From assembly GCF_005877885.1 (NCBI RefSeq), contig NZ_VCHY01000011.1:1-64000 (forward strand): a stretch of DNA of 64,000 bases. Direction: 5' to 3'. The DNA comes from Labilibacter sediminis (GTDB lineage Bacteria > Bacteroidota > Bacteroidia > Bacteroidales > Marinilabiliaceae). Both the position numbers and the translations under genes were made by a program. The notes under the pieces are model-generated. The model ran no database searches and had not been told where the DNA came from. It saw only the letters and a program-made list of their open reading frames with translations. Shown one piece after another: positions 30,692 through 48,288 of this stretch (positions are counted from its first letter, which is position 1; each line of letters starts with the position of its first letter).

Positions 30692-31189
30692 TTAAAAACT
30701 GCCAGGAGGCTCTGTTGGAGGATCATCCTTAAGTTTTTCATTTCTATAATATCTTACCACAATACCTAAGCACCTGCTTATGCCCCTAAAGTTTTCGGGA
30801 TTTTGAGGTGTGATTTCAAGAAATATACGTTGGGAGGAACCAAAGCTAATGCTAATGCTTGTACTAAAATGGTCATCTATATTGTCCCAAAGTACTTTTT
30901 TAGTATTGAAGTCTAGGATTCTGACTCTAAAATCACCAAGAAACTCTTCTTTACAAAGGTTAATATGGTAAGCAGTTCCTCCATAAAAAACCTGAATTAG
31001 CTGGAGCTTTTGGTTAGGTTTAATCTTATAACTTCTGGCAAAAGCCTGCTTATTAAACAATTTGTTTGTGGGTGGGCAAAAGTCAAATACATCGTTGCAT
31101 GATTGTGCTTGAGCATATATAGATAAGAAGAGGAATGTAGCGCAGATAAGTGCTATGCATTTTTGTGTTGTTGTTTTTAAGAATTTCAT
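30692..31189 (-). CDS. Small secreted protein A, paralogue of the one at 43860
   Basis: 165 residues with a signal peptide (about 1-28, ending AQAQS). The mature part has four cysteines (SCNDVFDFCPP, NLCKEEF, SRCLGIV) and ends in a proline-rich tail PPTEPPGSF. It shares a pattern with the product of 43860..44303: an N-terminal Cys pair, YGGxxY, FRxxI...VLxDN, SSQxxxIEvxP and a late Cys in (R/E)C(L/A)G. It belongs to no family I know. It is the last gene of the leftward operon, 38 bases after the ABC transporter, and is probably the transporter's partner or cargo; that link is inferred only from position. Confidence 0.75.
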   Translation of the reverse strand: MKFLKTTTQKCIALICATFLFLSIYAQAQSCNDVFDFCPPTNKLFNKQAFARSYKIKPNQKLQLIQVFYGGTAYHINLCKEEFLGDFRVRILDFNTKKVLWDNIDDHFSTSISISFGSSQRIFLEITPQNPENFRGISRCLGIVVRYYRNEKLKDDPPTEPPGSF

Positions 31190-31227: not shown

Positions 31228-34224
31228 TCAGAATTTTCTCTTTTTAAGACTAATTAAGATAGTAAAATAAAATAATATTATAAACAGTGAAATTACGATA
31301 AGGTTAAAGTGGTATGTTTTAATCAATAAGGAACCTGCTCTTTTATATGGAGCATAATAATGTGATCTACCCATTTGATTGTCAGAAATATAGTATCCTG
31401 GCTGAAATTTACGAATCATCTCTCCATCGCTATAGATGAATTTTTGGTAGTCGTTACTTTTTAAAATAAATTCAGACAGTTTTTGATTGTAGTATAATTC
31501 TTTTTTTATGTCTTTATTTTCTTTTCTTAACCCAGTAACATTATCGTATACTTTATTGAGTTTAAGTTTGAGCCATTTTTTAACTTTTTTAATGGTTTGG
31601 CTTATTTTAGGCACATTTTCCGGAGTTATCTCATTTTTTAGTATCTCATTTTTTATTTCCGGAAAATGAGTGATTAAATTATCAATTAATAGTTTGATGT
31701 TGTTGCTTGTTCCTGTTTCCCCACTTTGTTCTTTATTCAGTTGCGATAGTAATGTTTCTATTTTCGGAATTAAGAAGTTGTTGTAATAAACCAATTTGCT
31801 TTGTTCAATAAGTTGGTCAATTACCTTAGTGCTGTATTTGTTTTTGGTAAATTGAATAACCATTAATGATTCGTATGACCATCTTGAAATATTAATGTCG
31901 GCATAAAAAGGAACATATTTTTTAGATGCCAGACTATGGTGAATTTTATCGAAATCCAGAATAGCCCCGGCCAATAAAATTTGAGGAATCAATAAAAAAG
32001 GTATAGTAATATAGATAGCCAAAATTGATTTAAATTTGGAGGATATATATAAGCCAATTAAACTTGAAGCTACTGCAGTGAGCCATAAAGTAAGAAAGTA
32101 GTCCCAGAACATTCCTTTAATTTCTAAAATCGTATTGCCAACCCAAACATAGCAAAGGATTTGTATTGCGTTTACAATGGCTACAAACAGTACTTTTGAG
32201 TTGAGATATGATACCGGACTCAAACTTAAGAATGATTCTCGCTTTAAAACTTTGAGGTCTCGAAATATTTCGCTTGAGCTTAATATTAATCCTAAAAAAA
32301 GTGCAACAACCACACTTATAAAAAGGTAGGCCGGGATGTTGTCGTTATTGATAAAGAGGTATTTATGGGTAGTGTAATCTGTTGATTTTAAAAAGAAGGC
32401 CATAACAAAAGATAATAGAGGAGCACCAAATAATACAAGCAACAGGTATTGTTTGTCGGCCATGCGTATCATCACATTTCGCTTGAAATAAATCAAAAAC
32501 TGCTTAAATAAACTTGGAATGTAGGTGTTACTTTTAGTTGAATACTTTCTTTGGGATTTCTTTGTCTGTATGCTCTTTTTCTTGTTGGTTTTGTTTGTAA
32601 GAATATTGTGCCATTCAGTATTTTTTAAAACTCTTTTGTTAATAAATTCACCTTTAGAAGATTTATCCCTGTATTCCATTAGGTCTATAATTCTTTCAGG
32701 ATTATAATGGCCGTACCTTAAGTTGTCGTCAATAGCAGAATCAACCAGCTGAAGGTGCTTTTTAAAATATGACGAAGCAGTAAAAGGATTTCCAAAGTAG
32801 GCAGAGTACCCATTTTCATCTAAAATGAGAAGTTTGTCGAATAAAAAGAAAACGTCAGAGGTGGGTTGGTGAATATTTATAATAACAATATTACCCTGTG
32901 AGGCAATCTTTTTTAATACTTTAACCACAATTAAAGCATCAGAAGAAGACAGGCCGGATGTGGGTTCGTCAACAAATAGTATTCCCGGTTTTCGAACCAC
33001 TTCAAGTGCTATGTTTAACCTTTTTCTTTGTCCTCCACTAATTATTTTATCCAGTGGATTACCGACTTTTAAGTGCTTTATTTTTAAGAGGCCAAGTTCA
33101 GCTAAGGTTTTATTTACCAGATGGATTATTTGTTTTTTAGATAAATCGTTTCTGCAAAACTGAGTGCTGTATAATAGGTTTTGGAATACGGTTAAATCTT
33201 CAATAAGTAAATCATCCTGTGGCACAACACCAATTTGTTGTTTTAATGAATCCAGATTTTCGTACAAATCGAAGCCATTGATTTTTATGTGTCCCTGATC
33301 AGTTTCTAAAGTTCCGCTAAGTAAATTAAATAAAGTGGTTTTCCCAGTACCGCTTCCTCCCATAATGGCCATAAGCTGTCCTGAGCTTACCTCAAACGAA
33401 AGCGGTTTTATTCCCTGGTTGGAGTTATTAAAGCTTTTTGATATATCAATGGCTTCAATTTCCATGTAATGGGTTGACTTTTTCTGGAATATTAAATTAA
33501 GATCTCCAAAAAATAATGGGGTAATATTCTCTCCATCTATCACACCTCCAGCCGAAAGCTGGTAAATTCTCTCCGGAAATATAATTTGATTGTTTAGTAA
33601 TAGCTCTTCAGAACCCACATATTTTACCAAGAACGACTGCATCGAACAAACGTATAGAGCAAATAACTTTCCTTTAAAATCATCGCGTTGCAGTGTATGA
33701 AACGATTGGAGTTTAATGCGTGTAAAGTTGCCAACTGCTACTATTGACTTCGAAAGGTTTGCGTATTCAAGATCATCACGGATAAAATGTGAAACACAAC
33801 TCATCTCATCTTCAGGAAGTTCAAAAGATGTCTTAATTAAATTTAGTTGTTTTAAAAGCCTGTCTAATTTTTCCTTTTTTGTGATGATAATCTCCTGGTC
33901 TATAACATAGTCCAAGAGTGTGATGTAAAGTTCTGTTTTTTGTGTTTTTGATAGCTGCGAACTAATGTTTGATACAATGCTTTGTGTCTTATTGAGATAT
34001 AAAGTCTCTGTTGGATTTTCGTTTTTGGGAGCTTTTAGTTTGTAGTCATTATAATAATCCAAAAGTTCAAGTTGAACTTTCTGAGAAAAACGGGTGACAA
34101 GGTATTGCTCAAGGTAAGATTTATCGAGAATGGCAAAATCATCTTCTTCCTTGTGTTTAAACAAGGCAAATAGTTCTACTATTTGTCGAATGGTATCTAA
34201 CTTGAATAATACTTCCATATGCAA
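31228..34224 (-). CDS. ABCG-like ABC transporter with N-terminal and periplasmic extra domains
   Basis: 998 residues. An N-terminal helical region (about 1-250) resembles no clear family. The ABC ATPase (about 255-490) has Walker A GGSGTGKTT (289-297), signature ISGGQRKR (395-402), Walker B ILFVDEP and switch His452, in the ABCG/White order with the membrane part following it. Membrane helices are near 592-612, 632-652, 678-698, 707-727, 732-754 and 974-993. Between the last two lies a charged ~215-residue segment, probably outside the cytosol. All key ATPase residues are intact. It lies 14 bases after the OmpA gene, so it is part of the PorP operon. Export of a surface component is the likely role; the substrate is unknown. 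Confidence 0.88.
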   Translation of the reverse strand: MHMEVLFKLDTIRQIVELFALFKHKEEDDFAILDKSYLEQYLVTRFSQKVQLELLDYYNDYKLKAPKNENPTETLYLNKTQSIVSNISSQLSKTQKTELYITLLDYVIDQEIIITKKEKLDRLLKQLNLIKTSFELPEDEMSCVSHFIRDDLEYANLSKSIVAVGNFTRIKLQSFHTLQRDDFKGKLFALYVCSMQSFLVKYVGSEELLLNNQIIFPERIYQLSAGGVIDGENITPLFFGDLNLIFQKKSTHYMEIEAIDISKSFNNSNQGIKPLSFEVSSGQLMAIMGGSGTGKTTLFNLLSGTLETDQGHIKINGFDLYENLDSLKQQIGVVPQDDLLIEDLTVFQNLLYSTQFCRNDLSKKQIIHLVNKTLAELGLLKIKHLKVGNPLDKIISGGQRKRLNIALEVVRKPGILFVDEPTSGLSSSDALIVVKVLKKIASQGNIVIINIHQPTSDVFFLFDKLLILDENGYSAYFGNPFTASSYFKKHLQLVDSAIDDNLRYGHYNPERIIDLMEYRDKSSKGEFINKRVLKNTEWHNILTNKTNKKKSIQTKKSQRKYSTKSNTYIPSLFKQFLIYFKRNVMIRMADKQYLLLVLFGAPLLSFVMAFFLKSTDYTTHKYLFINNDNIPAYLFISVVVALFLGLILSSSEIFRDLKVLKRESFLSLSPVSYLNSKVLFVAIVNAIQILCYVWVGNTILEIKGMFWDYFLTLWLTAVASSLIGLYISSKFKSILAIYITIPFLLIPQILLAGAILDFDKIHHSLASKKYVPFYADINISRWSYESLMVIQFTKNKYSTKVIDQLIEQSKLVYYNNFLIPKIETLLSQLNKEQSGETGTSNNIKLLIDNLITHFPEIKNEILKNEITPENVPKISQTIKKVKKWLKLKLNKVYDNVTGLRKENKDIKKELYYNQKLSEFILKSNDYQKFIYSDGEMIRKFQPGYYISDNQMGRSHYYAPYKRAGSLLIKTYHFNLIVISLFIILFYFTILISLKKRKF

Positions 34225-34238
34225 CTGGTATTTAATTC

Positions 34239-36314
34239 TTAATTTCTCATTTCATTATCGTCAATAAGTCTAAACTCAGTACGTCTGTTTAAAGCTCTGC
34301 CTTCCGGGTTGTCAGAACCATCTGGGTTTACATTATTAGCTATAGGTTGAGTTTCTCCAAACCCTCTTGCCTTAAGCCTAAATTCTTCAACACCTTCGCT
34401 TATTAAAAATGCAACCACATTGTCTGCTCTGTTTTGTGAAAGTCGCTTATTGTATCTTTCGTTTCCTTTGTTGTCGGTATGAGAACTTATTTCAACCAGA
34501 AGGTCGGTGTATTGAAGCATAAGCTTCAGTAAAGTTCCCTTGATGACAGTCTTACTTTCATCGGTAAGTTGGTCGTTGTCAAATTCGTAATAAATATTGC
34601 TTAAGATGATGGGTGCTTTGTTTATGGTTTTTACGGTGATAGGTTTGAGTTCCATATTTAACTCTTTTGAGTGCACTCTTTGAGTCGAAAATGATAGTTT
34701 TTTATTTAATACTCTGCTGTCATCTATCATTACTTCAAAATCAAAACCTTTGGGAACTAAAAAACTGAATTCTCCTTTTTCATTGGTGGTTTCATGGGCA
34801 AGAAAAATTAAATTACTGGTATCTTTTTTAAGATAAAGATTAATTCGGGCGCTATCTAGTCTAGAAATCAGGTTGTCCACATTATTTTGGTCAGATGATA
34901 TAAGATTGTTAAATGTATATTCATGGGTTTTGAGTTTTCCTTTAATCCACACTTTTTCTATTTCTGATTTTTCCCAGTGGTAAATATCATCACAACAATT
35001 CGGATGTGTAAGGGCATACCCTCCTTCTCGGTTTGATGTAAAAAAACCTTTGTTGCCTAATTTGTGTTCTGAATAATAGAGGTCATCGCATTCCGAATTT
35101 ATCGGCATACCCAAATTAACAGGTTCATTCCAGTTAAGCATATCGCCTTGTGAATAATAAACATCTAATCCGCCTAAACCTGGCAAACCATTTGAGCTGT
35201 AGTAAATACAATGCCCAAAAGTGTCATAAAACGGAGTTGTTTCATCTTCATCAGTATTCAGGTAAATACCTGCATTTATTGGCTTTTGATAGGTTTCTTT
35301 TTGGGTATCGTAAATGGTAAACCAAATGTCTGTACCCCCATAACCCCCGGGGCGGTCAGAAACAAAATAGATAACTTCGAGTTTAGGATCGTAGCAGGTG
35401 CCTATGGCAGGTTGTGTTGCGGAATAATTCGGAATGTTTATTTCTGAGCTTAATGGCTGGGGAGTCGTCCATTTATCACTGTTTTTTGAGGTTACGTATA
35501 AGTGGCACACCATCTTCTGCATCCAGTTTTTAGAGCATTGCGTAAAGTAAAACCTTTTATTATCCAAAGAAAAAATACCATCACCTGTATCAAAATCCGG
35601 ATGGTTAAAAAAAGGTTCTTCAACAATTTTTTCTCGTTTCCAAATGGTATCTGATTTATGGGCTTTATAAAATTTACGCTTTGGTTTTCGATCTTCAGAA
35701 TCGTAATATTTTACAGAATCAATATTGCTTGATGAATAAATAAAAACAGAGTCAGAAATATAAAATGGATTAAATTCTATATGTGGTTTATTGATTGAAT
35801 TATTTAATAGAGAAATATCAATGCTTATGGTGCTGTCTTTTATGTTTTTTGCAAACTCGCAACCTTGAATCTGGATTTTTACTTTTTCTTTAAAGTTTTT
35901 TGGCAACCAGTAGGTTTGTTTGGTTCTCTTAAGATCTTTAAAGATTTCGTATGCTTCATCATAATAACCCAGCGACATTGCAGTTGTAGCCGCATAGAAG
36001 CTGGCTAAAGAACTTTTCTTTTTATCCTCAATGGCCAGTTTTTTGTACTGTTCATAAGCGTTTTGGTAGTTTCGCGATTTTAAATTTAAACTGGCCAGTT
36101 CCCATGCGTATTTTTTGTTTTTAGGATATTTCTTTGCAAGATAATTGTAAAAGAATATGGCAGAATGGTAATCAGACTGTTGAATGGCACTTTTAGCATA
36201 CCCCTTAATTTGCCAAAGTTTTAACTCTTCAGGTTGATAAGGTTGTGCGTTTAAGCCAGGGTTCTTAAACGATATCAATATAAGTAATAGAAATAATACT
36301 AATATCTTATGCAT
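34239..36314 (-). CDS. TPR/PD40/OmpA-family outer-membrane protein
   Basis: 691 residues with a signal peptide (about 1-23) and no lipobox. Order: TPR-like repeats (about 30-165), a PD40-type beta-propeller (about 170-440; motifs such as PGGYGGTDIWFT, GLPGLGGLDVYYS, FTSNREGG), a carboxypeptidase-regulatory-like domain (about 455-560), and an OmpA peptidoglycan-binding domain (about 575-690; SHTDNKGNERYNKRLSQNRAD). It is the architecture of PorE and SprE-neighbour proteins that link T9SS outer-membrane parts to the wall. Its start overlaps the porP-like gene by 16 bases, a tight translational coupling. Confidence 0.92.
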   Translation of the reverse strand: MHKILVLFLLLILISFKNPGLNAQPYQPEELKLWQIKGYAKSAIQQSDYHSAIFFYNYLAKKYPKNKKYAWELASLNLKSRNYQNAYEQYKKLAIEDKKKSSLASFYAATTAMSLGYYDEAYEIFKDLKRTKQTYWLPKNFKEKVKIQIQGCEFAKNIKDSTISIDISLLNNSINKPHIEFNPFYISDSVFIYSSSNIDSVKYYDSEDRKPKRKFYKAHKSDTIWKREKIVEEPFFNHPDFDTGDGIFSLDNKRFYFTQCSKNWMQKMVCHLYVTSKNSDKWTTPQPLSSEINIPNYSATQPAIGTCYDPKLEVIYFVSDRPGGYGGTDIWFTIYDTQKETYQKPINAGIYLNTDEDETTPFYDTFGHCIYYSSNGLPGLGGLDVYYSQGDMLNWNEPVNLGMPINSECDDLYYSEHKLGNKGFFTSNREGGYALTHPNCCDDIYHWEKSEIEKVWIKGKLKTHEYTFNNLISSDQNNVDNLISRLDSARINLYLKKDTSNLIFLAHETTNEKGEFSFLVPKGFDFEVMIDDSRVLNKKLSFSTQRVHSKELNMELKPITVKTINKAPIILSNIYYEFDNDQLTDESKTVIKGTLLKLMLQYTDLLVEISSHTDNKGNERYNKRLSQNRADNVVAFLISEGVEEFRLKARGFGETQPIANNVNPDGSDNPEGRALNRRTEFRLIDDNEMRN

Positions 36315-37321
36315 GGTATGGTTGTTTTCTTTAAAATGCTTGAAGGCCTTTCGTAAACGAGTGATAACTCAACGGCATGATTAAATATCGGATTTGTTTT
36401 TAATCCGGAAACATCTACATCAAAACTTAAAAAGGTTGTCCAATTATTGTAATTCAGTCCGGTTACAAAAATTAATGATTCCAAATTATTTATAAATCCA
36501 TTTCTAAAGTAAGCACCCAGACTTATGCTTTTAAATTTATGCTCTGAAGATTCTATGTTTAAGCCGGCATTGGATCCAATAACAAATTCAGATGTTTTGT
36601 TTTGAAAAGTATAATAGGATTGAGGTAGAATAAATACTTTTGAATTAAGGTCGTATTTAAGTGAGCCATGCCAATTGGTTCTTACACTTGTCTTATTTTG
36701 AGTTTCTAAAAAATTATCTTGAGGTTGGTTTAAATGAAACGTAGCAATACCTGTAGAAATGTGGTACCTTTCGGCTTTGTGCTGCCATAAAAAGCCTGCG
36801 TTAATATCAAGGTAATTTGAGCTTAAGTATTGAAAGTTTTCAGAGAGCGGGAGGTTGGGATTATAGCTGCCTTCTGACCTGTCATATTGTTCTAAAAAGG
36901 TAAGGTGATTGTATGATAGTGATTTGTTAATCCAACCCAATTGCAATCCAATACCTAAAAATGATTTTTCAGATACTTGTATCATGTTGCCAAGAGACAA
37001 ATATGTTTTGTGAGTAGGAATAGAAATGCCCTCGGAGTAATCGTGTGAGTAAATCAATCCTGCTCCAACTTGTGAGTTATATATATTAAAGACCCTGTCG
37101 TATGATAGGCTAATAGTGTTTAATGGATCTGAGTAATAATTACCTTGAGATCTGGAATTGCTAACCACCCTCCAGTCGCCATTAATTACTCCGGTATGGG
37201 CAGGGTTTAAATTAAGCGGAGATGAGAAAAATTGAGAATAATGCACGCTCTGACATAATGTGCTATTTGACATTATAAGTAGAAGTGTAATTAGGTTGGT
37301 GGTATATGAAAGTTTTTTCAT
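36299..37321 (-). CDS. PorP/SprF family type IX secretion membrane protein
   Basis: 340 residues with a signal peptide (about 1-23). The family signature is the start of the mature part, HYSQFFSSPLNLNPAHTG, followed by a beta-barrel rich in alternating aromatic residues. In Flavobacterium johnsoniae SprF is needed to secrete SprB, a repeat protein with a type B sorting domain. Here the divergent neighbour (37394) is such a protein, so the pair probably works the same way. It is first in the leftward operon of four genes. No core T9SS gene (gldK-N, sov/sprA, porV) lies in the window. Confidence 0.93.
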   Translation of the reverse strand: MKKLSYTTNLITLLLIMSNSTLCQSVHYSQFFSSPLNLNPAHTGVINGDWRVVSNSRSQGNYYSDPLNTISLSYDRVFNIYNSQVGAGLIYSHDYSEGISIPTHKTYLSLGNMIQVSEKSFLGIGLQLGWINKSLSYNHLTFLEQYDRSEGSYNPNLPLSENFQYLSSNYLDINAGFLWQHKAERYHISTGIATFHLNQPQDNFLETQNKTSVRTNWHGSLKYDLNSKVFILPQSYYTFQNKTSEFVIGSNAGLNIESSEHKFKSISLGAYFRNGFINNLESLIFVTGLNYNNWTTFLSFDVDVSGLKTNPIFNHAVELSLVYERPSSILKKTTIPCIRY

Positions 37322-37393
37322 ATTTTTTTATTTTGCGATGAAAAGTAGTAAATTAAATTCATGTATTCAAATATTACTCTAATTAAGGAATTA

Positions 37394-40300
37394 ATGAAAT
37401 ATTATTTATGTAACATAAAATATCGTATTTATTTGAAAAGGTATACTGTTGTTTTATTGCTATTACTATTGGGTGATATTTGCCTGAAGTCGCAAATTCA
37501 GGTTAGTTTTACTTCAGATTCACAAAGCGGATGTGCACCATTTTTAGTGGCATTTACCTGCAATGTTCAAGATGGTGATAATTATTCTTATTTATGGGAT
37601 TTCGGAAATGGGAATACTTCTACCTTAAAAAATCCACAAGCAACTTATCCAAATTTTGGCTTATATAGTGTTTCTTTAACCGTTTCTGATGGAGTAAATA
37701 CCGAAATTTTAAAAAAAGAAGACTTCATATCTGTTCATGAATCACCGGTTATTGATTTTTTTCCTAAAGATTTTATAAATGATTGTGCTCCAGTAGCTGT
37801 AAATTTTACCAGTTCGGTTAATCCGGAAAGTTCGTCAGATTCATACTTATGGGACTTTGGAGATGGAAAATTGAGCACAGAAAAAGATCCGAAACACATT
37901 TATACTGATGCCGGTATTTTTAATGTAACTCTTATTGTTGAAGATGAATATGGTTGCGTTGCTAAGTTGAGCTATAAAAATATGATTAAGGCTCAAAAGC
38001 CCACTGCTATATTTCAGGTAAACGAAAACAGGTCGTGTAGTGGAGAGTTAGATGCAATTTTTACCAACCAATCGTATGGATTAGGGGAGTTATTTTATCA
38101 TTGGGATTTTGGAGACGGGTACAATTCTGAAGAGATTAATGTTACGCATAAATATGAGCAGGATGGAGAGTTTGATGTGAGCTTAAAAGTGGTTGATGAT
38201 ATTGGATGTAAAGATAGTTTAGTAATTAAAGATTATATTGAGATTAGTAGTACGATCGCTTCATTTGAAATAATAAGAGATACTGTTTGTGTTGGGGAGT
38301 TAATTGTCTTTGATAATCAATCAGTTAATAATAAAAAGAGTTTTTGGAACTTTGGAGATGGAACTGATTCTGATATGATTAGTCCTGAACATCGTTATAA
38401 TAACCCGGGCGATTATAGTATAAATTTATCAATAGAAAATTATGAATGTAGCGACCAGGTCACTCAATCCATCCATGTTGAGGATGTACAGGTAGATTTT
38501 ACAGTGTCGTCAGATTATAGTTGTCAGGTACCCGTTGAGTTAAGTTATACAGGAATCTCTGAAAATGCAGTTTATTACGACTGGAGGTTCGGGAATGGTT
38601 CTATCTCTGATAAAGAAGCATCAGTTGTTAATTTCACATTGACAGATGGTTTAAAAAATAATCATCGTGAAAGTTATAGTGACACATTAATTGTTACTAC
38701 AAAGTATGGATGCAAAGCAAAATTGATTAAAAAGGATCATGTAAATATTGTTTTGCCCGAGACTAATATAATAGCAGATAAATCAGTGTCAGGCTGTAAG
38801 CCTGTAAGTTTAGTGTTTAGCTCTTGGATTAATTATGATACTCCAAAGGATAATATAGTTGACTACAGTTGGACTTTGAATGGAAAAGAGGTATCAACTG
38901 AGAATAGCTGGCAGAATGATTTTACTGAAGTAGGTGTTTTTGATATAGGTTTAGTGGCAACCACCGAGATGGGTTGTGCGGCTGTAAGTTCAATTAATGT
39001 AGGTGTGGGGGAGGAGCAGGTGCCTGATTTTACAGTAAAGGATAAAACTATTTTCTGTGCAAGCGAAATGGTAGAGTTTGAGGACCTGTCTGAGGATAAA
39101 GCTAAAATTGATTTTGTTCTTTGGGAATATGGAGATGGCACAACCAGTGAGTTAGGAATGCCATTTCATTTTTATGTTGATACAGGTTTTATGGATGTTA
39201 CATTATGGGTGTATCAAAATGGATGTGCAAGCTCCGTAACCAAAGAAAAGGCTCTCTATATTAAAGGTCCTTTAGCACATATTGAAAGAAAGAATATTTG
39301 TGACAAACCTTATTCGCCATCTTTTGAGGTTACATTAACGGATGCCGATTCTTATAGCTGTAACTTTGGAGATGGTCAAACGATTTCAGATGAGGGAAAT
39401 AGCTTTTCTCATACTTATTTAAATAAGGGGGCATATAAAGTTATGCTTACTGCGAATAATACAGAAAACGGATGTTCATTTTCATATATCAATAATATAA
39501 ATGTGTTTGACTCAAAAGCTTTGTTTGATACCATAAGTCTCGGGCCATGTGTTAATAACAATATTGTTTTTGATCCTGAGGAGAGTAAAGATGCAGAGGA
39601 GTTTAGCTATAATAATAAGCGTAATTATTATTTATGGGATTTTGGAGATAATTCTGACAAAGATTTTACCGATGGATTGGTGACTCATGTTTACAAAGCT
39701 CCTGGAGATTATGATGTAAGCCTAATTGTTAAAGATATAAACAATTGCTCCGATACGCTTAAAAAAACTGTGAAGGTTTATAGTCCTCAGGTAGATTTTG
39801 AAACAAATTACCAAAAAGGCTGTATACCGGTTATGTTTCATTTTAAAGATTTATCAATATCAGAAAATCAAATAACAGATTGGTTGTGGAGTTTTGGAGA
39901 TGGAGAGTATTCAGAGGAGCAAAATACATATCATGAATACCAAAATTTTGGTAATTATGCCGTAAGTTTAAAAGTAACTGATGAATTGGGTTGTAGCTCT
40001 TCCAAAAAATTAAGTAATGAGATAAAAGTGGTTTTCCCGGATGTTGATTTTAAGGTTTCAGATGCAAGCTCCTGCATTAATGACACACTTACTTTTTTTG
40101 ATGAATCAGAAAGTATAATAGAATCGTTTTTATGGGATTTTGGGGATGGGGTAACCAGCGGGGTTCGAAATCCAAAGCATGTATATTCTTCTCCCGGGAT
40201 ATATGATTTGTCTTTAAAAATTATAGATAATCATGGATGTGAATCTATTCGATCAGAGACTGGTTTTATTAGTGTTCAGAAACCTCCGGTAGCAAATTTC

Positions 40301-41767
40301 ATAAGTAATAATCAGGAATCTAACTGTTATCCTTTCCCTGTTGATTTTGAAGATCAGTCCGAATCGGCTTATTTAGGAAGTTGGAAATGGTTGTTTGGAG
40401 ATAATCAAACCAGCTCAAGTTTACAAAATCCAAAGCATATATATACTCAACCTAACGATTATGATGTGACTTTAATTGCTTATTCAACCAATGGTTGTTC
40501 AGATACGATTACTAAAAATGGCTTTATAAAAGTGGGAGGGCCTTACGCTGAAATTAACCTGGTAGATTCGGCCTGCATCTATGATAACATTGCTTTTAAC
40601 CTGATTAATCAGCGAAACCTTTCTTCTGTGCTTTGGGATTTTGGAGATGGTGTTGTATCAACTCAGCTGTCCGATTATCATACATATAATCATAAAGGTA
40701 TGTCATATCCTACGCTATTGCTTAATACCAATAGTAATTTTGCCTGTACAAAAGTTATTCAGGATTCCATTTATATTGATGAAATAACGGCAGCATTTGC
40801 GTTTAAAGAAGATATGGATAAAGGTTGCGTACCATTTCAGTTAGAATTGATTAATAATTCGGTTCGATCTGATTCTTATTTTTGGGAAAGTAGTGATGGA
40901 TTTACATCTCAGCAAAAAGTACCGATACATATTTTTAATCAGCCGGATCATTATGATTTAACTTTGGCTGTAAGCAATAATTTTGGTTGTAAGGATACTG
41001 CTGTTTCTCCAATTACTGTTTTTCCATTGCCAACCATTAAAACTTCAAAAGATACCTTTATTTGCAAAGATGATAATGTGGTTCTTTATGCAGAAGGAGG
41101 AGTGGGTTACAAGTGGGCACCTTCTGAAAGTTTGGATAATTCATTTGTATCTGATCCGATTGCCTCTCCTTTGGAAACAACAAAATATATTGTTGAAGTA
41201 GTTGATGAAAATAATTGTGTTAATACAGATGAGGTTACACTTACGGTTCAGCAATATCCGTTTGTTAATTTTTCCGATTCAACAATAATTATAGGGGAAT
41301 CCATAAAATTAGACTTAAGCAAGCCGGATATTAGGGAATATATATGGAGTCCTAATATTGGAATTTCTTGCACCAATTGTCCAAATCCTGTTTTAAATCC
41401 TGTGGAGTCCATGGAGTATAGTCTTGCACTTACCGATACAAGTGATTGTTTTACTATGGACTATCCGGTAGATATAAGGGTGCAAAAAAAATATTCAGTA
41501 GATGTACCTACTGCGTTTACACCCAATAAGGATAATGTTAATGATTATGTATTGGTAAACGGATGGGGTATTCAGGAGCTCGTATATTTTAGGATTTTTA
41601 ACCGGGTAGGAGAAATGATATTTGAATCAACAGATTTATCAGAAGGATGGAATGGAACCTATAAAGGAAAACCTCAAAATGCAGATATATATAATTATGT
41701 GGTTAGAGTTAAAACCTACGGAAATGAGTATTTAAATAAGAAAGGGAATATTAAACTGATAAGGTAA
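37394..41767 (+). CDS. Giant PKD-repeat surface protein with type B T9SS sorting domain
   Basis: 1457 residues from ATG 37394. An upstream ATG at 37361 exists, but 37394 gives a standard signal peptide (hydrophobic VVLLLLLLGDICL, cleavage near residue 33). About 13-14 PKD-type repeats follow, each marked by a W-x-F/Y-G-D/N-G motif (for example YLWDFGDG, KSFWNFGDG, DWLWSFGDG); repeat six (DYSWTLNG) and the last (YFWESSDG) are degenerate. Two Ig-like stretches precede the C-terminal gliding-motility/CHU_C type B domain beginning VPTAFTPNKDNVNDYV and ending NKKGNIKLIR. It should be exported by T9SS to the cell surface as an adhesin or filament. It heads a rightward gene run, 14 bases before a response regulator. 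Confidence 0.92.
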   Translation: MKYYLCNIKYRIYLKRYTVVLLLLLLGDICLKSQIQVSFTSDSQSGCAPFLVAFTCNVQDGDNYSYLWDFGNGNTSTLKNPQATYPNFGLYSVSLTVSDGVNTEILKKEDFISVHESPVIDFFPKDFINDCAPVAVNFTSSVNPESSSDSYLWDFGDGKLSTEKDPKHIYTDAGIFNVTLIVEDEYGCVAKLSYKNMIKAQKPTAIFQVNENRSCSGELDAIFTNQSYGLGELFYHWDFGDGYNSEEINVTHKYEQDGEFDVSLKVVDDIGCKDSLVIKDYIEISSTIASFEIIRDTVCVGELIVFDNQSVNNKKSFWNFGDGTDSDMISPEHRYNNPGDYSINLSIENYECSDQVTQSIHVEDVQVDFTVSSDYSCQVPVELSYTGISENAVYYDWRFGNGSISDKEASVVNFTLTDGLKNNHRESYSDTLIVTTKYGCKAKLIKKDHVNIVLPETNIIADKSVSGCKPVSLVFSSWINYDTPKDNIVDYSWTLNGKEVSTENSWQNDFTEVGVFDIGLVATTEMGCAAVSSINVGVGEEQVPDFTVKDKTIFCASEMVEFEDLSEDKAKIDFVLWEYGDGTTSELGMPFHFYVDTGFMDVTLWVYQNGCASSVTKEKALYIKGPLAHIERKNICDKPYSPSFEVTLTDADSYSCNFGDGQTISDEGNSFSHTYLNKGAYKVMLTANNTENGCSFSYINNINVFDSKALFDTISLGPCVNNNIVFDPEESKDAEEFSYNNKRNYYLWDFGDNSDKDFTDGLVTHVYKAPGDYDVSLIVKDINNCSDTLKKTVKVYSPQVDFETNYQKGCIPVMFHFKDLSISENQITDWLWSFGDGEYSEEQNTYHEYQNFGNYAVSLKVTDELGCSSSKKLSNEIKVVFPDVDFKVSDASSCINDTLTFFDESESIIESFLWDFGDGVTSGVRNPKHVYSSPGIYDLSLKIIDNHGCESIRSETGFISVQKPPVANFISNNQESNCYPFPVDFEDQSESAYLGSWKWLFGDNQTSSSLQNPKHIYTQPNDYDVTLIAYSTNGCSDTITKNGFIKVGGPYAEINLVDSACIYDNIAFNLINQRNLSSVLWDFGDGVVSTQLSDYHTYNHKGMSYPTLLLNTNSNFACTKVIQDSIYIDEITAAFAFKEDMDKGCVPFQLELINNSVRSDSYFWESSDGFTSQQKVPIHIFNQPDHYDLTLAVSNNFGCKDTAVSPITVFPLPTIKTSKDTFICKDDNVVLYAEGGVGYKWAPSESLDNSFVSDPIASPLETTKYIVEVVDENNCVNTDEVTLTVQQYPFVNFSDSTIIIGESIKLDLSKPDIREYIWSPNIGISCTNCPNPVLNPVESMEYSLALTDTSDCFTMDYPVDIRVQKKYSVDVPTAFTPNKDNVNDYVLVNGWGIQELVYFRIFNRVGEMIFESTDLSEGWNGTYKGKPQNADIYNYVVRVKTYGNEYLNKKGNIKLIR

Positions 41768-41781
41768 ATACTAAGCTTGGT

Positions 41782-42873
41782 ATGAAAAAAGGAAGAATTT
41801 TGATTGTTGATGATAATCCTAAAAACATTCAGCTTTTAGGAAATATTTTAAACGACAGCAACTATGAAGTAGAGATAGCTTTGGGAGGGAATGAAACAAT
41901 TGAATGGTTGGAGGAAGAACCTTTTGACCTGTTGTTGTTGGATGTAATGATGCCTGAAATTAATGGTTTTGAAGTATGTAAAATTATCAGAAGTAAAGCG
42001 AAGTTCGATTTAATGCCGATAATCTACATCTCTGCGAAAACGGATAAAGAAAGTATGGTATACGGATTTGAAGTTGGAGGGCAGGATTTTATATCTAAAC
42101 CCTTTGATACTTCCGAATTGTTGGCCAGGGTGAATACCCATATTGAGTTGAAAAAGAGTAAGGAAGGGTTGATAAAGATAAATAATGAACTGGAAAAAAA
42201 AGTAGCAGAACGTACTGAGGAATTGCAGAAGTCAAATGATGAACTTAAAAGGATAACAGAAACAAAAGATAAGTTTTTGTCATTTTTGGGTAATGAGATA
42301 ACATGTCCGTTAAAGTCAATAAATCAGGTAATTCATACCATTAAGCGGTCTGCAGAATCTGCACGTCTGTCGGAGATGATTACCTTGCTGGAAAGTTCAG
42401 TTGATAAACTTGATCTTATTACTAATATGGCAAATCAGATTACTCAGATTAAAAGTAATAAGAGTGTAGCTGATGAAAGAGCTTTTAGTTTAATTAATGT
42501 TATTGAGTATACTCTGGTTCAGCTGGATGACATGTTGGATGCAAAGAATGTGAACTTAAAGTATCAAATTAATAGTGATATTGAGATTAAAGGAAATAAA
42601 GAGTTAATAAAAAATTCGTTAACAGGAGTGCTGAATGTTATACTCAAGTATATCGATATTGACGAAACCATTCATATGTTTTCATCTCAAAATGGAAGAC
42701 TTACATTATCCATTGAGAGTAAAATAAAGGACTGGAATAATAAAGAGTTTCATGAACTTCCGGAAGAAACATTGTTGTATTTTTCTTATGCAGAAATAGT
42801 GATGAGTTTTCTTCGGGGAGAATTTAGTGTAAAAGCTAATTCATCATCTTATAGTTTTGTCTGGAAATTTTAA
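41782..42873 (+). CDS. Response regulator fused to a histidine-pseudokinase
   Basis: 363 residues. A receiver domain (1-120) has the acidic pocket Asp10/Asp11, phospho-acceptor Asp54 and the conserved Lys in ISKPFD. A coiled coil (about 125-160) leads to a HisKA-like helix, where FLSFLGNEITCPL replaces the usual SHELRTPL: Asn171 stands at the phospho-His. The C-terminal ATPase-like region has no N box, no DxGxG and no GxGLG. It can be phosphorylated, but cannot act as a kinase by sequence. It is 14 bases after the PKD protein gene and aligns with 47150..48283. It probably transmits the signal by protein contact. Confidence 0.9.
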   Translation: MKKGRILIVDDNPKNIQLLGNILNDSNYEVEIALGGNETIEWLEEEPFDLLLLDVMMPEINGFEVCKIIRSKAKFDLMPIIYISAKTDKESMVYGFEVGGQDFISKPFDTSELLARVNTHIELKKSKEGLIKINNELEKKVAERTEELQKSNDELKRITETKDKFLSFLGNEITCPLKSINQVIHTIKRSAESARLSEMITLLESSVDKLDLITNMANQITQIKSNKSVADERAFSLINVIEYTLVQLDDMLDAKNVNLKYQINSDIEIKGNKELIKNSLTGVLNVILKYIDIDETIHMFSSQNGRLTLSIESKIKDWNNKEFHELPEETLLYFSYAEIVMSFLRGEFSVKANSSSYSFVWKF

Positions 42874-42924
42874 TTAAATAATATAGTTTGTAATTGTATA
42901 ATATTAAACCAAATACTTAATCAT

Positions 42925-43821
42925 ATGCTTAAAACGATCTTTTACACATCCGTGTTTTTCATGCTTGTTTTTATCACAGGATGTAATAGCTGTAGTCAAA
43001 AACAATCGGTAGAATCCAATAGTGATCTGGCCTTAGATTTTGAGTCCTTAAATGTTATTGATTCAATTGAAGCAGTGTTTTATGCACTTCCTTCACCCGA
43101 AGAAATAATCTCTTATATCAAAGATCATAATGTAGATTTTAATCCCGGGTTACTTCATAATTACAAGGAAGCAAAGTTGTATGCAGAGAATGAAAAGAAG
43201 GCTGTTGTATTAGGGGTGTATTTTGCAGACCTGGCTTATATTTCAGCTTTTCGTAAATCAGATTTTAGTCCGGAGTATATTTCAACGGTGGATTATTTGA
43301 TGAAGGAAATTAACATTAACCCGGATTTTACAAAGCAACAGCAACAAAAAATTATTGACTCTTCATTAGAGCCTGATTCTTTATATATGATTTCACGCGA
43401 ATTGTACGATAAGGTAATCAGTTATCTGCAGGAATATGATGAGGGAAAAACACTGTCACTTATTTCTGTAGGTACGCTTCTCGAAAGCCTGTATATCTCA
43501 ACTTATTTGCATAAGGATTTTGTAAACCAAAAAGAAGCAATTGATAGAATTGCTGAGCAAAAATTATTATTCGAAGATATTGTTATCATGATGAATACAT
43601 ATAAGGAAAATGCAGTAGTGAGTGAATTGATCAGAGACCTAAAGGTTTTGCAAAAATCATTTGACAATCTTGAGGTGAATACCGCAGTAAATAAGGTGGA
43701 GGAAAACAAAGACGGTTCATTACATATAAAAGGCAAGAATAGTGTACAGGTAACAGAAGAGGATTATTATATTTTTGTTGATAACGTAAATGATTTCAGA
43801 ACAAAACTAATTCGTCAGTAA
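42925..43821 (+). CDS. Hypothetical lipoprotein, 298 residues
   Basis: A lipoprotein signal ends at the lipobox ITGC with Cys20, so it is anchored to the membrane, and no LolB-like retention signal is obvious. The mature part is helical and acidic, starting CNSCSQKQSVESNSD, and has no motif I recognise; segments such as PSPEEIISYIKDHNVDF and KKAVVLGVYFADLAYIS are typical of a family seen in Bacteroidota genomes, but without assigned function. It lies 51 bases after the pseudokinase gene and 38 before a small secreted protein, in the same run. It may be part of the surface structure or its sensor. Confidence 0.75.
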   Translation: MLKTIFYTSVFFMLVFITGCNSCSQKQSVESNSDLALDFESLNVIDSIEAVFYALPSPEEIISYIKDHNVDFNPGLLHNYKEAKLYAENEKKAVVLGVYFADLAYISAFRKSDFSPEYISTVDYLMKEININPDFTKQQQQKIIDSSLEPDSLYMISRELYDKVISYLQEYDEGKTLSLISVGTLLESLYISTYLHKDFVNQKEAIDRIAEQKLLFEDIVIMMNTYKENAVVSELIRDLKVLQKSFDNLEVNTAVNKVEENKDGSLHIKGKNSVQVTEEDYYIFVDNVNDFRTKLIRQ

Positions 43822-43859
43822 TGTAAGAGTAAAAACAATAGTTCGTAAATTCTGATTCA

Positions 43860-44303
43860 ATGAAAAAGATTGCTTCATTTATAATGTTGCTGGGTTTAAT
43901 TTGCTTTACATATGCCGAACTCAATGCTAATGATTGTTCCAATATGGAGAAAAAATGCAAGGATCCTGCTCCGGATTTTCAGATAAGTGCTACATCTCGC
44001 TCTATGAAAATGCGAAAAGGCAAAAGAGTAAGGATTGTATTAAATGCATATGGTGGCAGAGAGTATTTCTTTTCTACCTATTCAAAAGCTAAGGTTGGTG
44101 CCTTGCAGTTTCGAATTATTAATTCGGCAAATAATCATGTGTTATATGATAACGCAACTGAGGGATTAGCTGATAGTAAAATATTTAAGGTAGAAAGTAG
44201 TCAGAAACTGCACATAGAGGTGCTGGCTCCCAACTGGCGAAGTAATAATTTATATGAATGCGCCGGCTTTAAAATAGCATATAAAAAAATAGACTTGTTT
44301 TAA
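43860..44303 (+). CDS. Small secreted protein B, paralogue of the one at 30692
   Basis: 147 residues with a signal peptide (about 1-23, cleaved near ELNANDCS). The mature part carries DCSNMEKKCKDP at its start and a late Cys in YECAGF. It follows the same pattern as secreted protein A: YGGREY, FRIINSANNHVLYDN and SSQKLHIEVLAP. The resemblance over about 90 residues is too ordered to be chance. It is placed between the lipoprotein and the hybrid kinase. The two paralogues bracket the whole PorP/ABC/PKD block, so they may be subunits or secreted ligands of the same system. Function unknown. Confidence 0.75.
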   Translation: MKKIASFIMLLGLICFTYAELNANDCSNMEKKCKDPAPDFQISATSRSMKMRKGKRVRIVLNAYGGREYFFSTYSKAKVGALQFRIINSANNHVLYDNATEGLADSKIFKVESSQKLHIEVLAPNWRSNNLYECAGFKIAYKKIDLF

Positions 44304-44396
44304 CAAATTGTTTTTTGATAGTGATAACATTGTTTAAGTAGCTGTCTGGGAGTGATTTGTATTGTAGGGTTAAAGTATTTTATTAGTTAGGTTGTT

Positions 44397-47057
44397 ATGT
44401 CAAGTTGTGATGGTTTAATGGGAAAGGGAAATCTGAGTTTAAGTTTTGAGTTGTTTAATGCCTCTGACTTGGGATTTGTGGCATTTAATTATGATGGTGT
44501 TATTGAGGCTGTTAATGAACGGTTTTGTAGTCTTACAGCTATTTCTCATAAACAGCAAGCGAAAGGGAGTATAATAGAGAATTTAAATTTGTATGATGCC
44601 TATTCCGGTAAAACAATTGATATTTTAAAATGGGTTCGTTCAGTAGCGATTGATACCAATAGAATTACAAATACGTTGATATTGGTTTCTGCCAACGGTA
44701 AAGAAGATAAAGTTTCAATACAGGTTAATAAAATTGAAGATGTTAAGATTGGTTTTTCTGGCTATTTATTAACCATAGAAAAATTAGTTCATCATAAAAT
44801 TTTTCAAGAAGAAGATTGGGATAAGGATTATTTGCTTTCGCAAGCAATTAATAATGGGAAAATAGCAGTATGGAAATATACGATAAGAGATCAACTGTTC
44901 AAGCTTGACCCATATTTTAAAACTATCATTGAAGATCTAAATGGTAATTGGGAATACATCAATCTTTCGGAATTAGAGACGTTGATTCATTATAAGGATA
45001 GAGAAAGTTCGTTAAAAGACTTTAATGATTTTCTTGCCGGTAATAGATCAAAGTATCATTCTACATTTCGAATTATAAAGCCTAATAATTATGAAAAGTG
45101 GATATTAAGTACAGGACTGTTCTCTGAGTGGGATTCGGATGGCATGCCAGTTTCAGTTGTTGGTTATTTTCAGGATATCACAGAGCAAAAAAATGAAGAG
45201 TTAAATCTGAACAGACATCGATCACTGTTGAGTGCAACGCTTGAATCTACCCATTCCGGAATAATTGTTTTTGATACTAAAGGCAGAATAGTTTTGCACA
45301 ATAAAAATCTTAGATTATTATGGAAGATTCCTCTGCAAGCCGCCCTTGAGGAAAAGATTCATTTTGATAGATATGCAGAGAAACTGCTGGATGAAAACAG
45401 TACATGTGAAGGCCCTCTTAGTTGTAAGGGGTGTTTTAAAAGTGGAATTTGTACTTCAGAGGTTCAATTGAGTGATGGCAGGTATCTTGAGTTTTATTCC
45501 GGTCCTCAGGTGATGAATGGAGTATCAGAAGGTAGAGTATGGAGTTTTAATGATATAACTCAACGGAAATTATCGGAAATTGAATTGCTCCAGGCAAAAG
45601 AGGTGGCGGAGTCAGCTAATAAAACCAAAAGTGCCTTCCTGGCTAATATGAGTCATGAGATAAGAACTCCCTTGAATGCTATTATTGGATTTTCCGAGAT
45701 ATTGGCCAAAAAAGTTAAAAGAGTAGATTTAGGTGAATATGTATCTTCTATTACTAAGAGTGGTAAAACATTGTTAGGATTGATAAATGAAATATTAGAT
45801 TTATCTAAAATAGAAGCAGGTAAGCTTAAATTAAACTTAACAGAGGTAAGCCTAAAACAATTATTTAATGACCTAAACCGGATTTTTTTAATTGATGCCC
45901 AAGAAAAAGATTTGGCTTTTGAGATTAAAGAAAAGAGTAAAGTTCCTGAAACTATACTTGTAGATGAGCTTAGACTTAAGCAGGTAGTAATGAATATTGT
46001 TAGTAATGCAATAAAATTTACATCAAAAGGTTTTGTTCGGGTATCTTATTCTCTTGAAGATAGTTATAATGGTAATAAGAACTTGATTGTTTCTGTTGCA
46101 GATTCCGGAATAGGCATTGAAGAAAACCAGTTGGAAAGTATTTTTGATGATTTTAAACAAAGGGAGCAGTTAGATAGCAGAAGTTATGAAGGTACGGGCT
46201 TAGGATTATCTATTAGTAAAAGATTAACAGCATTAATGGGAGGAACTATAAAAGTAGAGAGTGTTGTTGGTGAAGGAAGTATATTTACTGTTTATGTTCC
46301 GGATATTGTTATTGTTCGTACAAATAGCGAAGTACCTAAAGAAAGGTTATTAGATCCGGATGGAATAGAGTTTTTGTCTGCAAAGATATTAGTTGTAGAT
46401 GATAGAGATATGGATAGGATTGTTATTAAGGAGTTACTGGAGGAATATGATTTAGAAGTTATACAGGCTGTTAATGGGAGGCAGGCTGTTGATGTTGCAC
46501 GGAAGGTTCGCCCGGACTTAATATTAATGGATATAAGAATGCCTTTAATGGGAGGGTATGAGGCAGTGAAACTTATGAAATCTTATAAAGAGCTAGAGCA
46601 TATTCCAGTTATTGCTTTAACGGCCTCAATGGAATATAAGGATTTTACAATAAGAGAAGATGGTTTTTGTGGTATTATTCGTAAACCGATTCATTTACAG
46701 GAGCTTGTAATAATTATTTCATGGCATTTGAAGTATAAAAAAAAGAAAAAGGTTAATGCTGAGGTCAATGCTAATAAAATAGAGTTGTTTAATAAAACCG
46801 ATGCAAAAGGGATACAATCTTTATTCGATCAAAAAGTCAATCATTTGATACTGGACATAAAGAAAAGGCATTCTGTTCTTAAGCTAAAAAAGCTTGTAGA
46901 TGAAATTTTATCTATCTCAGAAGAGTTTGATAATGTTTATTTAAAAAGACTAGGTAATAAATTACATAGTAATGTTGGTATTTTTAATATAGAGGGGGTA
47001 ATTAAAAATTTGCAAGAAATAGAAACATTTAATAAAGAAATAATTAAGGCGCTTTAA
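44397..47057 (+). CDS. Hybrid sensor histidine kinase with PAS domains and receiver
   Basis: 886 residues without signal peptide or membrane segment. Order: PAS-like regions (about 15-130, 135-270 and 275-400), the middle one being PAC-like; HisKA with phospho-acceptor His420 ([10 protein letters not shown]); HATPase with DSGIGI and EGTGLGLSI; a receiver domain (about 660-780) with Asp712; and a helical C-terminal tail (about 800-886). A cysteine cluster CEGPLSCKGCFKSGIC in the third PAS region could hold a metal or Fe-S centre. ATG 44397 is used; a second ATG at 44418 is possible. It lies in the same run as the PKD protein and is followed by another REC-pseudokinase. Confidence 0.9.
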   Translation: MSSCDGLMGKGNLSLSFELFNASDLGFVAFNYDGVIEAVNERFCSLTAISHKQQAKGSIIENLNLYDAYSGKTIDILKWVRSVAIDTNRITNTLILVSANGKEDKVSIQVNKIEDVKIGFSGYLLTIEKLVHHKIFQEEDWDKDYLLSQAINNGKIAVWKYTIRDQLFKLDPYFKTIIEDLNGNWEYINLSELETLIHYKDRESSLKDFNDFLAGNRSKYHSTFRIIKPNNYEKWILSTGLFSEWDSDGMPVSVVGYFQDITEQKNEELNLNRHRSLLSATLESTHSGIIVFDTKGRIVLHNKNLRLLWKIPLQAALEEKIHFDRYAEKLLDENSTCEGPLSCKGCFKSGICTSEVQLSDGRYLEFYSGPQVMNGVSEGRVWSFNDITQRKLSEIELLQAKEVAESANKTKSAFLANMSHEIRTPLNAIIGFSEILAKKVKRVDLGEYVSSITKSGKTLLGLINEILDLSKIEAGKLKLNLTEVSLKQLFNDLNRIFLIDAQEKDLAFEIKEKSKVPETILVDELRLKQVVMNIVSNAIKFTSKGFVRVSYSLEDSYNGNKNLIVSVADSGIGIEENQLESIFDDFKQREQLDSRSYEGTGLGLSISKRLTALMGGTIKVESVVGEGSIFTVYVPDIVIVRTNSEVPKERLLDPDGIEFLSAKILVVDDRDMDRIVIKELLEEYDLEVIQAVNGRQAVDVARKVRPDLILMDIRMPLMGGYEAVKLMKSYKELEHIPVIALTASMEYKDFTIREDGFCGIIRKPIHLQELVIIISWHLKYKKKKKVNAEVNANKIELFNKTDAKGIQSLFDQKVNHLILDIKKRHSVLKLKKLVDEILSISEEFDNVYLKRLGNKLHSNVGIFNIEGVIKNLQEIETFNKEIIKAL

Positions 47058-47149
47058 AAAATATTAACCTTAAAGTAAGGCGCTGTAAGGCGTGTAGGTA
47101 TGGCGTATTGCTGTTATATCTGCATTGCGTAATAACCAAACCTAATATT

Positions 47150-48283
47150 ATGAATAAGGATAAAATATTGATTGTAGATGATAATGCCAGTAATATACAA
47201 ATATTGGCGAATAACCTGGCAAAGGCCAAATACGAGGTAGAGTATGCTTTGGATGGAGAAAGTGCCGTTGAATGGGTAGAGAGTGAGCTGTTTGATGCTA
47301 TTTTATTAGATGTAGTTATGCCGGGGATTGATGGTTTTGAAACATGCCGTCAGATAAAAAATGATAGTAAACACAAAAATACTCCTATCATTTTTTTAAC
47401 TGCAAATGATGATTTAGAAACCGTGAAAAAAGCTTTTAATGCAGGAGGTGTTGATTATTTAACCAAACCATACTCACAGGAGGAGTTGTTGGCAAGGCTT
47501 GCTACACAAATAGAGCTCAATAAAAACAGACAGAAACTAAAAAATGTAAATCAGTATCTTGAAAAGCAGGTTGAAAAAAAGAATAAAGAATTGAAGAAGG
47601 CCTACGAAGGATTAAAAGTTCTTGATGCTGCAAAAAACGAATTTTTAAGTATAATTAGTCACGAATTACGAACTCCTTTAAACGGTATAATTGGTTCTGT
47701 TAGTCTGCTAAATAATATGAAACTGGAGGGAGATATTCAGCAGGTGATGGCAATTTTAAATGATTCTGTTTCGCGCTTAGAAAGATATTCATTGTATGCC
47801 ATTAATATATCAAATACAAAATTGAGTAAAAATGCAGAAAAGTATTTTAAAGCATTTAAATGGGGAGCTGTTTTTTCAAATGCGATTCAGGTATTTCAAC
47901 GAAACAATTCAGTAGGTGTAAGTTATGGAGTTGATTTTGACAGGGATGATAGAGAGGTATTAGGTAATGAGGAGTTGGTGTTGTTGTCTGTTGTTGCTTT
48001 AATGGAGGTGTCGTTAAGTTTTGGTTGCCTGTTTAAGGAGCAGTTTTTGAGTTATTATAAGAATGGAAGCGTTTATTTTGAAATAAGCGATGCCGGAACT
48101 CCCAATGAAGTGGTGATTATCGATGAAAATTCCTTAAGCTACTCATCTAACAGCCACATGAAAAGGAGTTCATTTATTGAACTTTACTTTGTGAATCAGG
48201 TGGCCAATATTCATAAGGGAGAATTAAAATTCTCAACAAATAATGACGGTACCAAAACAACGCTTATGTTACCAGTTAATTAA
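47150..48283 (+). CDS. Response regulator fused to HisKA and a degenerate ATPase domain
   Basis: 377 residues from ATG 47150; a TTG-initiated extension to 47108 exists but has no support. It has a receiver domain with Asp10/Asp11 and Asp54, then a coiled coil and an intact HisKA motif, SHELRTPL with His171. The following ATPase domain lacks the N-box asparagine (SVVALMEVSLSF) and the G2 box, and the G1 box is only DAGTPN. So it can accept phosphate on His or Asp but probably cannot make it. It is the paralogue of 41782..42873, with the same domain spacing and His171 opposite Asn171. Its stop is 5 bases from that of the convergent kinase. Confidence 0.9.
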   Translation: MNKDKILIVDDNASNIQILANNLAKAKYEVEYALDGESAVEWVESELFDAILLDVVMPGIDGFETCRQIKNDSKHKNTPIIFLTANDDLETVKKAFNAGGVDYLTKPYSQEELLARLATQIELNKNRQKLKNVNQYLEKQVEKKNKELKKAYEGLKVLDAAKNEFLSIISHELRTPLNGIIGSVSLLNNMKLEGDIQQVMAILNDSVSRLERYSLYAINISNTKLSKNAEKYFKAFKWGAVFSNAIQVFQRNNSVGVSYGVDFDRDDREVLGNEELVLLSVVALMEVSLSFGCLFKEQFLSYYKNGSVYFEISDAGTPNEVVIIDENSLSYSSNSHMKRSSFIELYFVNQVANIHKGELKFSTNNDGTKTTLMLPVN

Positions 48284-48288
48284 GTGCT

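Follow-up and report, generated by a model that had tools for sequence, protein, structure and literature searches.

The receiver-controlled kinase LvrB of Leptospira (PDB 8vc9) autophosphorylates (D56, H161) and phosphorylates LvrC; phosphorylation of its receiver forms a coiled coil and frees the catalytic and ATP-binding (CA) domain (PMC13269768). DivL is a pseudokinase with tyrosine in place of the phosphorylated histidine, and restoring the histidine gives an autokinase activity that is stimulated by DivK~P (PMC4211667; PDB 4q20). The description of ChpT of Caulobacter gives it two domains and no receiver (PMC3433190). PhyT is a membrane-anchored phosphotransferase, which its authors suspect arose by degeneration of a catalytic domain and which also sequesters its response regulator (PMC5898713). 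PorX, a response regulator of the type IX secretion system (T9SS), reportedly binds PorL, a component of the machine, rather than T9SS promoters, and in this sets a precedent for binding of the machine by such a regulator (PMC5005315); another paper reports that it binds the porT promoter (PMC8050853). Here we compare these systems with two response regulators, RR1 and RR2, encoded in a stretch of 64,000 nucleotides from Labilibacter sediminis (contig NZ_VCHY01000011.1, positions 1 to 64,000; hereafter the window).

RR1 and RR2 share with LvrB a similar length and the order of receiver, dimerisation and histidine phosphotransfer (DHp) domain and CA domain. In both, a receiver with the Asp and active-site residues is continuous with a long helix leading into the DHp-CA part. 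They differ from LvrB in that RR1 lacks the ATP-site motifs and the histidine, and RR2 lacks the motifs save part of the G1 box and keeps the histidine. RR1 resembles DivL in that the phosphorylated histidine is replaced in a DHp-CA core under selection (as judged from two pairs of relatives) and, we propose, in reuse of the core for binding; DivL, however, carries PAS domains, a Tyr in place of the histidine and no receiver, and loss of the ATP-site motifs is a further difference on the side of RR1. RR2 resembles ChpT and Spo0B in its DHp histidine and H-box (SHELRTPL) and, as we propose, would share with them a CA-like domain that does not use ATP. Its fused receiver sets it apart from ChpT, and RR1 lacks the histidine of these proteins. 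With PhyT, RR2 would share descent from a kinase and a role as phosphotransferase, but PhyT is anchored in the membrane and no fused receiver is mentioned in the available part of its paper. We propose, with a probability of roughly 0.6, that RR1 and RR2 derive from receiver-controlled kinases of the LvrB type whose core has been demoted, RR1 being a terminal, non-catalytic regulator that acts by binding and RR2 a phosphotransferase of another lineage. Among the papers listed in searches of the open-access literature (PMC), none was recognised that describes, for such a gene neighbourhood, the fusion of a receiver to a dead kinase core; this does not prove absence, as subscription papers lay outside the scope.

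Domains and motifs of RR1 and RR2

The two genes belong to a run of five on the plus strand, in the order RR1, LIPO, S147, hybrid kinase (the 44397 kinase) and RR2 (Table 1). The mechanical open reading frame (ORF) of RR2 begins at TTG 47108; the likely start is ATG 47150, on which the residue numbering (Asp54, His171) depends. Both receivers contain Asp10, Asp11 and Asp54 and match Response_reg (103 bits in RR1 and 110 bits in RR2; Pfam search of the window proteins at E ≤ 1). At position 171, RR1 has Asn (GNEITCPL) where RR2 has His (SHELRTPL). The original prediction, which was made from the sequence of this locus, had given the Asp54 receivers and the Asn/His difference correctly. It had also assigned HisKA helices to both proteins. 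RR2 does match HisKA (45.7 bits, cut-off 26.9), whereas RR1 has DHp-like helices in its model and no HisKA match. HATPase_c is likewise missing from RR1 at the same E value and reaches 13.3 bits in RR2, below the cut-off of 26.4. The N box, DxGxG and the G2 box are all absent from the motif table of RR1. RR2 has lost the N and G2 boxes, with RSSFIELYF where the G2 box is expected, and keeps the D and first G of G1 (ISDAG). The predicted motif losses are thus confirmed, and both proteins appear to be kinase-derived and without the usual ATP-site motifs, with a phosphorylatable histidine kept in RR2 only.

A sequencing error (CAT to AAT) is an unlikely origin of Asn171, because the changes extend to positions 174 and 175 and none of the five same-genus orthologues has His. 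An Rfam search found nothing at the gathering score in 41000-49000. Matches to RR1 and RR2 that extend well past the receiver come from three proteins of the same genome (G000, 6.4 Mb), the two themselves and a third on contig C122. The genome has 85 HisKA matches at E ≤ 0.001, many of them in open frames of ~1330-1480 aa.

Structure models

In the AlphaFold2 model of RR1 (13-sequence alignment; mean pLDDT 85.7, pTM 0.58) a long helix extends from the receiver; other DHp-like helices and an alpha/beta sandwich of the CA type follow. A loop of 14 residues (314-327) occupies the position of the ATP lid, and no intact alternative ATP site, a finding that would have spoken against a specialised pseudokinase pair, is seen. 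RR2 has a similar layout at lower confidence (mean pLDDT 78.0, pTM 0.47), with pLDDT below 50 at 291-305 and 330-339, around the lid region. LvrB is the rank 1 Foldseek match of RR1, with six chains of 8vc9 at E 1.1e-16 to 2.5e-15, at a whole-chain TM score of only 0.33-0.34. The RetS-GacS complex, GacS, ZraS and RetS follow; RetS is non-canonical. DivL and PorX come in at ranks 19 and 20. The PorX match is weak over the whole chain (TM ~0.3).

The family and residue 171

Relatives were sought in 61 genomes, 71 genomes of the family, 393 of the order and one scan of titled contigs, with a non-exhaustive reading of gene contexts: 5 of at least 80 loci from the titled contigs were read (L102-L106), and matches in the order that had no assigned locus were mostly left unread. 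In a plasmid search with RR1 the best match among the 5000 records considered had 29% identity. VIA-align searches returned receiver domains and were uninformative on the DHp-CA part. Two trees were made. The first includes column 171 and leaves out L053:5217 (166 aa), the L192 receiver fragment, L073 (187 aa), L105 (no alignable H-box) and two kinase cores. The second, a quick tree with long branches, was set to leave out column 171; it also omits the frame-shifted L052, L218 and L220 (both His, short), duplicate loci and L230:8926, which has an aligned Gln and an H-box resembling another HisKA type.

RR1 and 18 other proteins, from 18 of the 71 genomes, form one clade, group A (support 95/87 in the first tree, 95 in the second). 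RR2 is on a long branch (1.2) in a separate clade of 15 (100/99), part of group B. As these clades are separate and supported in both trees, RR1 and RR2 are not sister duplicates. The RR2 clade has His171 in 15 of 15 members and keeps the H-box, with an RNNAMELYLAK-like stretch in place of the G2 box in most of them. In group A, residue 171 is N in seven proteins, R and K in three each, H in two and G, D, T and S in one each. With eight residue types among 19 proteins, Asn171 is rejected as a conserved functional residue. The specialised Asn/His pair of the original prediction is not supported either, the five same-genus orthologues of RR1 having R, K, R, R and D.

The receiver of group A is conserved: D10, D11, D54 and S/T84 are found in 18 of 18 proteins (the 19th is without the receiver N-terminus) and K106 in 19 of 19. 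In the DHp domain, His171 is lost from 17 of 19 and R174 and T175 are mostly lost too (Thr175 remains in only two). F165 (19/19), L166 (18/19), E172 (17/19) and G170 (16/19) are retained. At a Pfam E ≤ 0.01, HisKA is matched by one of 13 group-A alignment rows (E 0.005) and 17 of 17 group-B rows, and HATPase_c by four of 13 and 15 of 17; the 17 group-B rows include four relatives from outside the clade of RR2. Among six further group-A proteins, HATPase_c is found in one (below the cut-off) and HisKA in none. Everything is intact in three relatives near group-A clusters (L182, L184, L187). With the RR2-clade and group-A states, the family therefore spans the range from full kinase to dead core.

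Ratios of nonsynonymous to synonymous substitution (dN/dS) were calculated by NG86 for seven close pairs, among which RR1 and RR2 do not figure, and gave full values in two group-A pairs. For L048/L049 they are 0.08 (receiver), 0.09 (DHp) and 0.29 (CA), and for L068/L069 0.05, 0.02 and 0.06. Judged from these two pairs, the DHp and CA domains of group A are under purifying selection, beyond chance decay. Full-length open frames are found in 17 of the 19 genes. The group-A gene at L050:10157-16171 (G016) is cut short at about residue 270; beyond it and other ORFs lie ORFs of 687 aa and 295 aa that by eye resemble genes of transposable phages.

Cassette position and loss of the histidine

Group A adjoins a T9SS type-B PKD protein and/or LIPO and S147. 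For the whole family, 90 members including RR1 and RR2 were tallied, a member being counted as linked if a cassette gene lies within 2 kb on the same strand. The histidine is absent from 25 of 32 linked members and from one of the 58 others (Fisher p 7e-15). With the limit lowered to 150 bp, again for the same strand, it is absent from 25 of 27, the two with His being L067 and L077. The single unlinked loss is L106, with a LIPO gene 7.6 kb away. The window agrees with this rule: RR1 is 15 and 52 bp from cassette genes, and RR2 is 2.85 kb from S147, behind the kinase.

Eighty LIPO loci were drawn from the listed, mostly high-scoring LIPO matches without regard to response regulators. Six loci with a response regulator already known (G132, G232, G188, G412, G312, G376) were counted apart, and ORFs resembling the response regulators without an alignable full DHp domain (L256, L258, L259, L261, L271, L278, L290, L087, L091) were not counted. 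An ORF of the family was not seen in 67 of the 80 stretches read. Four have a full-length relative upstream of ABC-LIPO-S147 on the same strand, with N (L099), Q (L294), D (L298) and H (L090, 0.6 kb off) at the site. Similarity searches add relatives at ABC cassettes with T (L102), N (L228), N (L229), E (L230) and Q (L231). EIRTP is kept beside the changed residue in five of the eight non-His proteins that abut the ABC gene, so that in these five the histidine alone is replaced within the stretch.

At L230:5648-8067 (G188), outside group A, two relatives in tandem immediately precede the ABC-LIPO cassette; the one next to it has Glu and the one beyond has His. In L232 and L233 a different receiver protein (L232:7200-8402, L233:1603-2811) intervenes between the ABC gene and a relative with His; we take it, by eye, to carry a PP2C/SpoIIE-like motif, and it is perhaps an alternative output in the same slot that does not bind DNA. 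At L259:1547-2647 (minus strand; G358) a receiver protein of 366 aa has intact-looking N, G1 and G2 boxes and no recognisable H-box; a LIPO gene lies 5.8 kb away on the opposite strand.

Neighbouring genes

Table 1. Features of the RR1-RR2 locus and its surroundings (window coordinates).
Feature	Coordinates	Strand	Description
Second S147-like gene	30692..31189	-	BLAST similarity to S147 relatives
ABC transporter	31228..34224	-	ATPase and ABC-2 membrane domain; family adjoins LIPO-S147 in other genomes
OmpA-domain protein	34239..36314	-	PorE and CHU_0125 models match well below cut-offs
PorP/SprF family type IX secretion membrane protein	36299..37321	-	
PKD-repeat protein	37361..41767	+	13 PKD_4 stretches, CHU_C / T9SS type B sorting domain
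RR1 (group A)	41782..42873	+	363 aa; receiver 1-120, coiled-coil/DHp-like helices 110-224, CA-like domain ~233-362
LIPO	42925..43821	+	298 aa; signal and lipobox-like start by eye
S147	43860..44303	+	147 aa; signal-like start by eye; two Cys invariant among the 12 relatives aligned
Hybrid kinase (44397 kinase)	44397..47057	+	886 aa; PAS domains, HisKA, HATPase_c, receiver, ~90 C-terminal residues without assignment
RR2 (RR2 clade of group B)	47150..48283	+	377 aa; receiver, DHp with intact H-box, degenerate CA-like domain

The 44397 kinase is intact (HisKA 73.5, HATPase_c 95.9 and Response_reg 71.3 bits). It and a second hybrid kinase (48289-52542, minus strand) both have an end of ~90 residues behind the receiver (residues ~790-886 and ~1320-1417), for which no Pfam family was found above the cut-off. 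The order PKD-RR-LIPO-S147-kinase recurs, without RR2, in five same-genus genomes (L046-L049, L051). In seven group-A loci of other genera (L054, L063, L067, L068, L069, L077, L191) the kinase is directly upstream of the response regulator and shows no receiver match, which makes the response regulator the natural phosphate acceptor there. Six group-A loci remain; L188 has two kinases with weak receiver matches and L192 has a kinase on the opposite strand.

LIPO has no Pfam or NCBIfam match above the cut-off, and S147 has no match in either. LIPO occurs in 160 of 393 genomes of the order and in five of 395 drawn from the phylum (the present genome included). LIPO and S147 form an unnamed conserved pair, which in part of the loci stands beside an ABC transporter of 1000 aa.

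Discussion

We suggest the following mechanism. The 44397 kinase, the likely phosphodonor of RR1, would phosphorylate Asp54. This would change the receiver dimer and the coiled coil, as reported for LvrB, and the DHp-CA core, dead by its motif losses, would be the output and would bind a partner. Binding is the likeliest output left to RR1, because RR1 has no ATP-site motifs and can hold no phosphate on residue 171; RR1 thus probably signals by binding a partner rather than by passing phosphate on. It probably serves the surface-protein export cassette formed by the T9SS type-B PKD protein, the PorP/SprF and OmpA proteins, the ABC transporter, LIPO and S147. RR2, having lost the N and G2 boxes and kept the histidine and whole H-box, is most likely at most a receiver-gated histidine phosphotransferase like ChpT, Spo0B or PhyT, and not a dedicated partner of RR1. 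More tentatively, at slightly less than even odds, we would extend this to the family: receiver-controlled kinases that serve such cassettes would have lost the histidine in at least two, perhaps three, linked lineages and become phosphorylation-gated binding switches for the export of surface proteins, sometimes beside a His-bearing relative.

Several observations weigh against these readings. Two of the 18 relatives of RR1 in group A (L067, L077) have His, a finding named in advance as an argument against a specialised pseudokinase pair; the others are without it. HATPase_c is still matched at E ≤ 0.01 by five of the 19 group-A proteins, and no kinase is seen in the 9 kb around four of the group-A loci (L050, L182, L184, L186). 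If either strand is allowed, the tally is 25 of 34 linked members against one of 56, since two intact kinases, at 24-68 bp from S147, are then included. Five more linked proteins with His lie at 0.6-1.8 kb (L090 two, L230, L232, L233), and 21 of the 58 unlinked rows are flanked by less than 1.9 kb of sequence on one side or both. The tree needs five changes of linkage and four of the His state, with perhaps only two losses in linked lineages, so that the Fisher p overstates the association; a test of independent pairs has two pairs on starred branches (five on all) and cannot reach significance.

The strongest alternative, which we nevertheless consider unlikely, is that the dead DHp core senses a phosphorylated receiver, its own or that of the kinase, by docking it and stabilising or removing the phosphate. 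DivL, one of the Foldseek matches of RR1, binds DivK~P through its DHp-CA part and lengthens its half-life (PMC4211667), and several ABC-linked relatives keep ExxT, the phosphatase motif of HisKA (PMC5727384). RR1, however, has ExxC (NEITC), and Thr175 is as rare in group A as noted above. The H260A mutant of HK853 has diminished phosphatase activity (PMC5727384), which makes a DHp domain without His a poor candidate. A phosphatase role for RR1 is thus unlikely; the version in which the core only binds is unaffected.

More doubtful still is a functional pair built round the 44397 kinase, in which RR2 would relay through His171 and RR1 would be a non-accepting scaffold, as originally predicted, or a decoy for the same kinase, or the two would form a heterodimer. 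The two genes flank the kinase in the window, and in seven of the 18 group-A genomes (G000, G008, G016, G813, G815, G822, G824) some relative with His is found no more than 20 kb from the group-A gene, the order in G822 being PKD-RR-LIPO-S147-HK-HK-RR. The tandem Glu/His proteins of G188 speak for it as well. To this extent the original interpretation is supported, but the neighbours come from at least three clades, three having an intact ATPase and that of G016 being frame-shifted, and no such neighbour is found within 25 kb in the other 11 genomes (matches at E ≤ 1e-60; some contigs are short). The five same-genus clusters have the kinase and the orthologue of RR1 without an adjoining RR2. 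No gene of the RR2 clade was seen beside the other 18 group-A genes, and other members of that clade were found beside other kinases.

That RR1 and RR2 are on their way to becoming pseudogenes is very improbable: the long branch of RR2, the shortened L050 and split L192 of group A and the frame-shifted L052 of group B would fit decay, but nearly all group-A genes are full-length, the gene order is repeated and dN/dS of the DHp and CA domains is low in the two fully scored pairs (neither of which holds RR1 or RR2).

Beyond the demotion of the cores of RR1 and RR2, the larger finding would be that receiver-controlled kinases are converted, in step with gene position, into regulators with a dead core, as the sequences of the family suggest. 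Response regulators are usually classed by their output domain; a catalytically dead kinase core as output would, if true, be a further route from phosphorylation to effect. The family provides a natural series (ATP site and His; no ATP-site motifs and His; neither), which makes the role of pseudo-histidine kinases directly testable, as does the tie of the loss of His to one kind of gene cassette. RR1 itself is a candidate, unstudied regulator of type IX-linked surface proteins.

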